Shown piece by piece: positions 1,796-7,652 of a stretch of 28,835 nucleotides of DNA. How positions within the stretch are numbered: the first letter of the stretch is position 1; every line of letters starts with the position of its first letter. Position numbers and translations under genes: made by a program. The notes beneath the pieces are model-generated. The model worked only from the letters and a program-made list of their open reading frames with translations. It had not been told where the DNA came from and did no database searches. This DNA comes from a virus, in the IMG/VR virus record IMGVR_UViG_3300000385_000021, positions 1-28,835 of that record; one strand, 5' to 3'.

Positions 1796-2731
1796 ATGGC
1801 ATTTTCTCAGGGCAGTCGTTCCCGTCTATCCTTCATTGAAGAAACTACCTTTGGGACTACTCCCTCTGGTGACTTCACTAATATCCCGTTTAATACACAT
1901 AGCCTGAACCTCACAAAAGAGCGTGTCTCGGGTAATGAAATCCAGCCTGACCGTATGCTTCGTGTGGACCGTCACGGCAACCGCCAAGTGGGTGGTGATA
2001 TTGTAGTTGACCTTCGGGCCACTGACTTTGATGCTTTCCTTGAGTCGGTAATGCTCTCGACTTGGCAGACTTCTACTGGAACCCCGGATGAACTCAAGGT
2101 TGGCACCACCCCGAAGTATTTTTCCATTGAGGATTTTGCAGCCGATATTGACCAAGCACGTCTCTTTACCGGATGCACCATGTCTTCGATGAACATTTCC
2201 ATTGCCCCTAACCAGATGGTCACGTCTACTTTTGGTGTTGTGGGTAAGGACATGACTATCTCTCAGACGGAAAAGACCGTTGCATCTTCCACGGTGAATA
2301 ACCCGTTTGATAGTTACTCCGGTGATGTTCAGATTGCAGACACGGGCGGTAGCCTTAGTGCTATTACATCCATCACTGCTGTTGACTTCACTCTTGACAA
2401 TTCCTTCTCTCCGACTTTCGTGGTTGGGGATGATAGTGCACCTCACATTCTTGCTGAAATGGCTTCTGTCGAGGGGACGTTCTCTGCTTACTTTGAGGAT
2501 GCTTCCCTGATTGAGCGTTTCATCAATGAGACTGAGACCCAACTTTCTGTTTCTGTAAATGATCCCTCGGGCGTGAATGAGTATGAGTTCTTGTTCCCCC
2601 GTATTAAGATCAATGGCGCAGATGTTCCGGTTGGTGGGACTGGCCCTCGGATTGTTGAACTTCCGTTTGTGGCCCTCTACGATGACACGAATGAAAGTAA
2701 CCTCGTGATCTACCGCCCGGACAGCACTTAA
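1796..2731 (+). CDS. major tail tube protein
   Basis: 311-residue protein that would polymerise in rings around the tape measure to form the tail tube. The N-terminus (FSQGSRSRLSFIEETTFGTTP) and the later 'QVGGDIVVDLRATDFDAFLESVM' segment follow the pattern of siphovirus tail tube proteins with a repeated beta-sandwich. At 311 residues it is longer than a single-domain tube protein, consistent with two tandem tube folds. The ribosome site is close to ideal (AAGGAGG at 1783-1789, 6 nt before ATG), as expected for a very abundant protein. A structured noncoding gap follows. The 320-residue antisense reading frame here is a shadow. Confidence 0.8.
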   Translation: MAFSQGSRSRLSFIEETTFGTTPSGDFTNIPFNTHSLNLTKERVSGNEIQPDRMLRVDRHGNRQVGGDIVVDLRATDFDAFLESVMLSTWQTSTGTPDELKVGTTPKYFSIEDFAADIDQARLFTGCTMSSMNISIAPNQMVTSTFGVVGKDMTISQTEKTVASSTVNNPFDSYSGDVQIADTGGSLSAITSITAVDFTLDNSFSPTFVVGDDSAPHILAEMASVEGTFSAYFEDASLIERFINETETQLSVSVNDPSGVNEYEFLFPRIKINGADVPVGGTGPRIVELPFVALYDDTNESNLVIYRPDST

Positions 2732-2837
2732 GTTCTCTACGGAGGACTGGCGGAGGGAGTTGGTAGTCGGGGCTGATTCCCTCCGCACTTAAACACAAAC
2801 CCCGACAATCAATTAAACCCGATAGGAGATACCCGAC
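2732..2837 (+). promoter_or_regulatory. structured leader between tail tube and chaperone genes (H-type pseudoknot)
   Basis: This 106-nt gap is unusual in a genome with almost no spacing. Stem 1 pairs GCGGAGGGA (2750-2758) with TCCCTCCGC (2778-2786), 9 perfect pairs. Stem 2 pairs GTCGGGG (2766-2772), inside the loop of stem 1, with CCCCGAC (2800-2806), 7 perfect pairs. This is an H-type pseudoknot with an A-rich third loop of 13 nt (2787-2799). The same GTCGGG can instead pair with CCCGAC at 2832-2837, directly before the ATG at 2838 and just after the ribosome site AGGAG (2824-2828). There is no T-run, so it is not a classical terminator. Pairing is seen; a regulatory role is inferred. Confidence 0.7.
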
Positions 2838-3218
2838 ATGGCTGACCTTAAAGCATATACCCCTGAAAGTGATACGATTACTGTAACCCTGCCTATTGAG
2901 AATGACGATGGTAGCCCTATGACCATTGAGGTCTATGCACCTTACAGCAAGGAATACAAGGCTCTCGTCCACAAGCAGGCCAATGAACGTATCAAAAAGA
3001 TGAATAACAATAAGAAGCAATACCCTTCGGTTGAGGAACTTGAGAAGTCTCAGCTTGATCTGTATGTGGGTATTACGAAATCTTGGAACATTACTTACGA
3101 CGAAGAGCAACCCAAGTTTTCTGAGGCTAAGGCCCGTGAGATTTACACTACCGTATTCTGGATCAAAGACAAGATTGAGGAGGCGCTTCAAGAGTCCACG
3201 GATTTTATGAACTTCTGA
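2838..3218 (+). CDS. tail assembly chaperone, short form (lambda gpG-like)
   Basis: 126-residue acidic/basic helical protein with no membrane segment. It sits between tail tube and tape measure genes, where siphoviruses encode the chaperones that coat the tape measure during tail assembly. It begins with a beta-rich part ('TITVTLPIENDDGSPMTIEVY') followed by long charged helices rich in Lys and Glu. The ribosome site ATAGGAGAT lies 8-9 nt before the ATG. Near its 3' end a TTTT site allows a -1 shift into the next frame, giving a longer gpGT-like product. Family is inferred from position, size and the frameshift arrangement. Confidence 0.72.
   Translation: MADLKAYTPESDTITVTLPIENDDGSPMTIEVYAPYSKEYKALVHKQANERIKKMNNNKKQYPSVEELEKSQLDLYVGITKSWNITYDEEQPKFSEAKAREIYTTVFWIKDKIEEALQESTDFMNF
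3203..3209 (+). promoter_or_regulatory. candidate -1 ribosomal frameshift site
   Basis: The sequence T-TTT-ATG at 3203-3209 lies four codons before the stop of the short chaperone. A peptidyl tRNA-Phe on TTT (3204-3206) can re-pair with TTT at 3203-3205, after which the ribosome reads TAT GAA CTT CTG in the -1 frame. That frame is open from 3179 to 3556. A purine-rich GAGGAGG stretch (3177-3183) upstream could act as an internal Shine-Dalgarno stimulator, though at about 20 nt it is farther than usual. The site is not a classic XXXYYYZ heptamer. Confidence 0.5.
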
Positions 3219-3556
3219 TCTGTCAGTTGGAGGAGTTTGGGGGATGGAACTTCAAGCTCTCTAAGGCGGATCAGAATGGTGTAACAGAAAGAGAACACTT
3301 AGAGCAAGTAGAAAGGCAGACTGGTAGGACACCTGAACCCCTAATCGGACCGGATTTTCCGCAGGAGTTGTCTTACATATGGTCTGCCTTCATTCATTTA
3401 AGTAACGCTCGATCTGTAGGCTTCAGTGGACCTAATCCTCTATCCTATCAAGAGATCAAGGCATGGATGGAACTGACCGAGACTAACCTTAAGCCTTGGG
3501 AAGTAGAAGCAATAAAGCGCCTAGACAATGTTTACATGAAGGTAATAAATGGCTGA
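3206..3556 (+). CDS. tail assembly chaperone extension (lambda gpT-like), made by -1 frameshift
   Basis: This open frame continues the chaperone in the -1 frame. Residues before any start codon already look like protein (YELLICQLEEFGGWNF), a hydrophobic helix typical of the second half of chaperone fusions. The only early start is TTG at 3227, with no ribosome site upstream. I therefore favour a frameshift fusion of about 239 residues over separate initiation. The C-terminal part ('PLSYQEIKAWMELTETNLKPWEVEAIKRLDNVYMK') resembles the segment in chaperone T-domains that precedes the tape measure. Its TGA (3554-3556) overlaps a small frame starting at ATG 3549. Confidence 0.65.
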   Translation, partial: YELLICQLEEFGGWNFKLSKADQNGVTEREHLEQVERQTGRTPEPLIGPDFPQELSYIWSAFIHLSNARSVGFSGPNPLSYQEIKAWMELTETNLKPWEVEAIKRLDNVYMKVING

Positions 3557-6581: not shown

Positions 6582-7210
6582 TGGCACAGAGAGATATTTC
6601 TACGTCGGTTTTGGGTTCTCTTGAGGAAGGTGTTGTCTACCCCTTCTTTACTGTTGAACTCCTCTTTGACAGTGCTCCGATTAGACTTTGGACTGGCAGT
6701 GGAACACTGGTTTTTGGTGGTGACTCCTACATTGGGACCGGAACACTACTAGACATTTCTTCTGTAGAGGAAACCTCTGAGATGGCTGTCAAGGGGGCCA
6801 CTATTACTCTTACCGGAATGAACTCGGAAGTAATTTCGCTGGCCCTTCAATCCCCCTACCAAGGTCGTATCTGTAACATCTCTTTTGGTATGTTTGCTAC
6901 GGGGGAACTTCTTAAGGAAGATGGAGCCTATATCCTACTTGAAGACGGAAGCACTATTGGACTTGAGACACAAGAGACAGGTCTGACCCAAATCTTCTCT
7001 GGTTACATGGACCAAATGAACATCTCTGAAGGCCCTGAGTTTGGAACCATTGAACTTAAGGTAGAGAATAAGCTGATTGACCTTGAGAGACAGAGGGTCC
7101 GCAGGTTCACAAACCAGTTTCAGAAGTCCCTTTATCCGAATGACCGTGGTCTAGAGTTTGTGGAGAACATTCAAGACAAAGAAATCGTTTGGGGTCGAAG
7201 TGTCAATTAA
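6581..7210 (+). CDS. minor tail protein, tail-tip hub-like (DUF2163-like region)
   Basis: 209-residue beta-rich protein. The opening 'VEEGVVYPFFTVELLFDSAPIRLWTG' type of pattern, the later 'TITLTGMNSEVISLAL', and the end (YPNDRGLEFVENIQDKEIVWG) follow hub or baseplate proteins such as those encoded after the distal tail protein in gene transfer agents and many siphophages. Such proteins connect the tube to the central fibre. It overlaps the next gene's probable GTG start (7200) by 11 nt. Confidence is moderate for tail-tip role, lower for the exact family. Confidence 0.6.
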   Translation: MAQRDISTSVLGSLEEGVVYPFFTVELLFDSAPIRLWTGSGTLVFGGDSYIGTGTLLDISSVEETSEMAVKGATITLTGMNSEVISLALQSPYQGRICNISFGMFATGELLKEDGAYILLEDGSTIGLETQETGLTQIFSGYMDQMNISEGPEFGTIELKVENKLIDLERQRVRRFTNQFQKSLYPNDRGLEFVENIQDKEIVWGRSVN

Positions 7211-7652
7211 GTATCAACAAGAGTTTCTAGACAGCATCCAAGATGAGGTTCTACCCCTTATCGAGAGACACTTTGATGAGGTATATCCCGCTAGAGATAC
7301 CTTTGACCTTGACATGGATTGGGATACCTACCGCTCTCTTGAAAGTGTTAATCTACTGAAGATTTTTACAGCTAGGGACGAAGACAAACTTGTAGGGTAT
7401 CTTTGGGTTGTAATCGCCCCCAATCTTTGTTCCAAAGGTAACTTTATTCCTTCGGAGGATGGTCTTTACGTTGAACCTAAATACCGTGGTCTGACTGTTG
7501 CCAGAAGGTTGATCCAGTTTGGGGAGAAGTGCCTTAAGGAAGACGGTTACGAAGTTCTTTGTATTACCGGGACAGAAGAGAAGCCCATAGACAAGTTTGT
7601 TGAGCGTATGGGTTACAAGAAGATCGAGACTAGGTTTAAGAAGGTTCTCTAA
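7200..7652 (+). CDS. GNAT-family N-acetyltransferase
   Basis: 150-residue protein likely to transfer an acetyl group from acetyl-CoA to an unknown substrate. The acetyl-CoA binding motif is visible as 'GLYVEPKYRGLTVARRLIQFGEKCLKE', with the R/Q-x-x-G-x-A/G core read as YRGLTVAR. The following 'GYEVLCITGTEE...FVERMGYKKIETRF' is the typical last part of the GNAT fold. I chose GTG 7200, where the protein begins SIKYQQEFLDSIQDEVLPL; an ATG at 7158 would overlap the upstream gene by 53 nt. It sits between tail-tip genes, in the slot where lambda-like tails carry a NlpC/P60 peptidase. The target could be a tail protein or a host protein. Confidence 0.78.
   Translation: MSIKYQQEFLDSIQDEVLPLIERHFDEVYPARDTFDLDMDWDTYRSLESVNLLKIFTARDEDKLVGYLWVVIAPNLCSKGNFIPSEDGLYVEPKYRGLTVARRLIQFGEKCLKEDGYEVLCITGTEEKPIDKFVERMGYKKIETRFKKVL

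Follow-up and report, generated by a model that had tools for sequence, protein, structure and literature searches.

A conserved candidate RNA element with repeated loop-complementary boxes between the tail tube and tail chaperone genes of phages with mainly alphaproteobacterial hosts

How are tail proteins made in very different amounts when their genes lie in one cluster and are probably carried on one message? The programmed frameshift signal of tail assembly chaperone genes lies inside the chaperone gene (PMC3556154), and how phages set tail protein amounts beyond this known frameshift is poorly understood. The question is raised by a 28.8-kb viral fragment from the IMG/VR collection (28,835 nt, the whole stretch that was analysed and hereafter the window), in which 106 bases separate the gene for the major tail tube protein (MTP) from the presumed gene for the tail assembly chaperone. 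An earlier note on this DNA had placed the gap between a tail protein gene and a chaperone gene, and the domain searches agree. The upstream product is a clear Phage_tube_2 protein (Table 1). The chaperone assignment draws on gene position, on a weak similarity to Phage_TAC_4 that falls under the curated cut-off, on the Phage_TAC_18 frame that follows (3227-3556), and on relatives of the product that fall in PHROG 313, tail assembly chaperone. The 3227-3556 frame has no obvious start and is shifted by −1 against the chaperone gene, an offset that would match what is expected for the usual chaperone frameshift. Elsewhere in the tail gene cluster, a 164-amino acid open reading frame (7158-7652) encodes, by eye, a putative GNAT-type acetyltransferase.

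As listed in Table 1, the gap contains a hairpin directly past the MTP stop codon (P0, with a UACG loop) and a second hairpin (P1) whose apical loop, here called the hub, is complementary to three downstream boxes. The perfect core of P1 consists of nine Watson-Crick pairs and reaches 15 bp when G-U pairs are included, and the hub pairs with box A over 7 bp to give stem 2 of a pseudoknot. The 9-bp and 7-bp stems and the 13-nt crossing loop described in the earlier note were recovered at exactly the same coordinates; P0 and box B are further features absent from it. A hairpin of at least 9 bp with a 7-nt downstream loop match arose in 2 of 20,000 dinucleotide shuffles of the gap, and this is the sole site of its kind in the whole window. 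By plain minimum-energy folding the gap is only moderately unusual (z = −1.98).

Table 1. Features of the tail tube-chaperone junction in the window, with their coordinates and the evidence for each.
Feature	Coordinates	Strand	Evidence
Major tail (tube) protein gene (MTP), upstream neighbour	1796-2731	+	Pfam Phage_tube_2, E=6.6e-45; 62% identity to Roseobacter phage CRP-6 gp46
P0 hairpin, GTTCTC-TACG-GAGGAC	2732-2747 (arms 2732-2737/2742-2747)	+	Fold; compensatory changes; varied tetraloops
P1 hairpin	2750-2786 (core 2750-2758/2778-2786; with G-U pairs 2750-2764/2772-2786)	+	Fold; compensatory changes; many distinct 5′ arms
Hub, P1 apical loop GTCGGGG, 5′ strand of stem 2	2766-2772	+	Near-invariant loop sequence
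Crossing loop, ACTTAAACACAAA, 13 nt	2787-2799	+	
Box A, CCCCGAC, 3′ strand of stem 2	2800-2806	+	Pairing retained in divergent representatives; hub-box covariation
Box B, CCCGAT, adjoins the Shine-Dalgarno sequence	2818-2823	+	Sequence; at least 2 non-start boxes in 27/64 representatives
Shine-Dalgarno sequence (SD), AGGAG, of the chaperone gene	2824-2828	+	Sequence; predicted from the consensus
Box C, CCCGAC, adjoins the chaperone ATG (2838), competing hub target	2832-2837	+	Enrichment at CRP-6-like starts; 99.5% paired in the 34-sequence alignment
Tail assembly chaperone gene (TAC), 126 aa, presumed regulated gene	2838-3218	+	Position; weak Phage_TAC_4; following Phage_TAC_18 frame; relatives in PHROG 313

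Conservation was examined in more than 200 viral contigs gathered by scans with the MTP and chaperone proteins, which gave a set of 170 distinct MTP-chaperone gaps of 60-260 nt. The element was parsed in every CRP-6-like gap of this set; the five parser misses were R5C-like or very distant, plus Sansa, whose loop is changed. P1 is built from 93 different 5′ arms across the 170 gaps, all of them paired, and the hub reads GTCGGG in 169 and TTCGGG in the remaining one. An alignment of 34 sequences revealed double compensatory changes at all 12 aligned P1 pairs and all four P0 pairs, with a covariation score of 0.448 compared to 0.212 in shuffles (0/500), and stem 2 was paired in 99.5% of cells. 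The hub-box pairing was retained in 63 of 64 divergent representative gaps. The loop of P1 thus pairs with sequence 3′ of its own stem, the arrangement of an H-type pseudoknot, and both stem 1 and the hub-box pairing covary. The earlier note had proposed that a genuine fold would leave compensatory changes in both stems, and these were found in relatives with the same flanking genes. In most of the complete or near-complete records that were tested, a covariance model returned a single strong hit, located at the MTP-chaperone junction. R5C and Sansa escape the model; their elements were found by reading the gap. Judged from these comparisons, it is well supported that P0 and P1 form hairpins and that the hub pairs with the boxes. 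The P0 tetraloops are diverse among relatives and include GNRA, UNCG and AGCU. Often P0 is a perfect palindrome (CCCUAGCUAGGG, CUCAGCGCUGAG, CUCUGCGCAGAG), which in L300, L298, L305 and L296 lies just 5′ of P1, and such palindromic hairpins could also dimerise.

Where the hub departs from its usual sequence, the boxes depart with it. One relative (L070) has the hub UUCGGG and three boxes that all read CCCGAA, and in another (L281) GUUGGG is paired with CCCAAC. In phiCbK, AUCGGGG is accompanied by CCCCGAU on both sides of the hairpin, and the UGUGGGG of Sansa by CCCCGCA, CCCCACA and a further CCCCACA that adjoins the AUG. Exact matches to an upstream box extend to 11 nt in CcrSC and 8 nt in RXM. 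Averaged over 20 clades, the longest hub-box match was 7.65 nt in a phage's own flanks versus 6.2 nt in the flanks of other phages; own exceeded swapped in 20 of 20 clades, and none of 20,000 permutations reached the own value. The number of pairing boxes ranges from one to four per element, some of them upstream of the hairpin. Since the tails are C-rich, box counts in single named phages were mostly ordinary against shuffles, and we therefore relied on the pooled and swap tests only.

The box next to the start codon requires separate treatment. Fifty-two CRP-6-like representatives less than 80% similar to each other were scored for six bases paired to their own hub and ending at or overlapping the AUG. 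Such a box was present in 45 of the 52, compared to 16 of 253 (6%) other SD-preceded ATG starts on the same contigs, which is the chance level. Most of the exceptions retain CCCGA or CCGAC. The variants of box C are nearly all C-to-T changes (CTCGAC, CCTGAC, TCCGAC, CCCGAT), so that pairing is kept as G-U. Across clades the start-site box covaries with the hub (30/5000 permutations). Inside the CRP-6-like group this covariation was not significant (583/5000), because hub and box C are both nearly invariant there. None of 12 R5C-like gaps has a start-proximal box, and the downstream boxes of that group gave no own-versus-swapped excess (4635/5000); box C is also absent in RcXuper, DSS3P8, Domovoi, Bajun and CcrSC. 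The start-codon pairing proposed in the earlier note is thus upheld for most CRP-6-like phages and by the covariation across clades, but does not extend to the R5C-like gaps or to several other phages. Its picture of two exclusive folds, with the start free or covered, fared similarly: the start box is common but not universal, and a simple switch between two folds is too narrow a description given several boxes, some of which lie 5′ of the hairpin.

The same architecture of hairpin, hub and boxes precedes the chaperone gene in phages that are much more distant. It was found in Dinoroseobacter phages R5C and R26L and in Pseudanabaena phage Pan1; in phiCbK, CcrRogue, CcrPW, CcrColossus, CcrSC and Sansa, Caulobacter phages among them; in Brevundimonas phages Domovoi, Gurke and Bajun, Citromicrobium RXM and Rhodobacter RcXuper; and in Ruegeria DSS3P8, Sphingobium Lacusarx and Erythrobacter XM05. 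Many of these carry a further box upstream of the hairpin. Gammaproteobacterial relatives have next to no gap and lack the element: in the tail modules homologous to these, from Pseudomonas, Vibrio, Acinetobacter, Escherichia, Salmonella and Xanthomonas phages, the MTP-chaperone gap measures about −1 to 28 nt, and gaps this short are frequent where the element is missing. Nothing beyond a plain hairpin is present in Microcystis phage Mwe-JY26 or Rhizobium phage P106B, and when the genome collection was scanned with the MTP and with a chaperone, no chromosomal relatives were returned. Apart from Pan1, whose recorded host Pseudanabaena is cyanobacterial, the element is so far restricted to phages with alphaproteobacterial hosts; the link to alphaproteobacterial hosts is suggestive and reflects the phages sampled. 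The Sansa record annotates the hairpin region (L183, 2492-2531) as a terminator; its loop matches three downstream boxes. In the R5C-like gap of L269, which is without the hub/box pattern, a long hairpin (GATCTCCTGTAATTG/CAATTACAGGAGATT) takes the chaperone SD (AGGAG) into its stem and may have arisen independently as an answer to the same problem of control.

We infer from its position that the element acts on translation: its boxes adjoin the SD and the AUG, it occupies a single site, and the gene upstream encodes the abundant tail tube. With a probability of roughly 0.57, it would be a cis-acting RNA element that sets translation initiation of the chaperone cistron separately from that of the tail-tube cistron upstream, and translational control of the chaperone is the most likely function given the position of the SD and AUG and the covariation. 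The hub would engage a single box at any moment. In the pseudoknot, formed with box A, the SD and AUG would stay open, and a duplex with box B at the SD or box C at the AUG would close the start. The predicted duplexes with box A and box C are of similar strength (means of −12.9 and −11.7 kcal/mol), making competition plausible, and box A may be favoured as the nearer box and the one made first. The balance could be set by folding order, a bound protein or ribosome occupancy, so that chaperone synthesis is throttled or gated, and P0 may insulate the two cistrons. Two observations fit this scheme less readily: start masking does not explain the boxes that other clades carry 5′ of the hairpin, and the crossing loop of phiCbK-like forms is 4-5 nt, which may be short for an 11-bp stem. 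More tentatively, one hairpin loop that chooses among two to four duplicate boxes on both sides could be a multi-position translation switch that sets tail stoichiometry or timing, an unrecognised RNA family that has spread through otherwise unrelated Alphaproteobacteria phages and possibly reads a common host factor.

The hairpin and boxes might instead be the operator of a phage or host protein that represses or activates the chaperone cistron, with the pseudoknot as the recognised shape and not a self-acting switch; T4 gp32 and ribosomal protein S15 act in this way on pseudoknots in the leaders of their own messages. The near-invariance of the loop UCGGG even in R5C-like phages with few boxes, beyond what pairing needs, points in this direction. 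A host factor shared among Alphaproteobacteria would fit the host range seen so far, Pan1 excepted, and the repeated boxes resemble cooperative sites such as those of T4 (PMC535899). We nevertheless consider a protein operator unlikely, as Sansa and L281 have altered the loop yet kept complementarity, which argues against a strict reader of sequence. A role in mRNA processing or stability, with the hairpins protecting the 3′ end of the tail-tube message or keeping the chaperone message apart from it, and with control of translation as a secondary effect, appears less probable still. It would explain why strong hairpins lie right past the tail-tube stop in all forms, and why L269, L014 and L302, which have no hub/box pattern, still carry a plain hairpin there, but it offers no account of boxes that adjoin the SD and AUG and covary with the loop. 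A search of 2600-2900 for an intrinsic terminator (a GC-rich hairpin followed by a U run) gave no terminator-like site.

That the repeats act in DNA, as operator copies or recombination sites with an incidental RNA fold, is very improbable: the 6-7-bp motif does occur in several copies and both orientations and many P0 hairpins are palindromic, but the compensatory changes in P1, P0 and hub/box contradict a DNA operator, the hub is always an apical loop on the mRNA strand, the P0 tetraloops vary, and no promoter-like site was found in the region around the gap. We give hardly any weight to a metabolite riboswitch, or to a frameshift or read-through pseudoknot at the tail-tube stop, for although H-type pseudoknots serve both roles and the stem sizes resemble those of frameshift pseudoknots, the gene encodes a structural chaperone, Rfam has no riboswitch match here, and the frames that continue beyond the stop are short and lack conservation as an extension of the tail-tube protein (medians of 10, 5 and 15 codons in 64 representatives). 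The small-ligand sensing raised in the earlier note is left unsupported.

Several known systems come close to this element. The operator of T4 gene 32 consists of a phage mRNA pseudoknot upstream of the ribosome-binding site, followed by repeated short units near that site (PMC535899). Both features are shared by the element described here, which differs in that its repeats and the hairpin loop are complementary and covary, in sequence, and in distribution (tail genes of mainly alphaproteobacterial phages); the downstream gene encodes a tail assembly chaperone, not a single-strand-binding protein. In the rpsO (S15) leader, two mutually exclusive folds near the SD and start, one of them a pseudoknot, control translation initiation (PMC8470358). 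Mutually exclusive folds of this kind are proposed here too, but the element sits between MTP and chaperone genes with no ribosomal protein gene and has its target boxes in multiple copies. An S15-type site was considered and rejected: the P1 apical U-G/G-U/G-C cap is present in only part of the CRP-6-like group and is not kept in phiCbK-like or L011-like forms. The SAM-II and preQ1-II riboswitches are likewise H-type pseudoknots at ribosome-binding sites. The element here has no match in Rfam and no metabolic gene, and no aptamer core was seen in it; the core of its loop is simply complementary sequence. The frameshift signal of the chaperone genes belongs to the same gene module and acts at the RNA level on chaperone products, as this element may, but the element lies ahead of the start codon, and no conserved extended frame runs into it. 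The element is a cis-acting pseudoknot at a start site whose unusual addition is several duplicate target boxes for one loop; by analogy it would work like the ribosome-binding-site-proximal pseudoknots of T4 gene 32 and rpsO while belonging to neither.

The earlier note knew of no described element exactly here, and neither did our searches: Rfam 15 gave no gathering-score match in the window, none at E≤10 in 2650-2900 and none at E≤1 in eight relatives, and the searched literature, the phiCbK genome paper included, does not describe it. The element is a well-supported family of structured RNA that Rfam lacks, and it recurs in hundreds of marine phages as well as in well-known Caulobacter phages. 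From this conservation it probably controls the amount of the chaperone, a helper protein. CRP-6-type phages are reported to be ubiquitous in the ocean (PMC6918029), and since the element spans these phages and Caulobacter phage phiCbK, it can be tested in a standard model. In two relatives, an open reading frame of 147-151 amino acids is inserted between the hairpin and the chaperone start (L016, 4014-4457; L246, 3364-3819). These frames encode zinc-finger-like CxxC pairs and an HLDHI(I/V)P motif, which are typical of HNH homing endonucleases and would suggest such an enzyme, and in L246 an apparent old P1 3′ arm sits beyond the inserted frame. T4 segG likewise overlaps the gene 32 pseudoknot (PMC535899).
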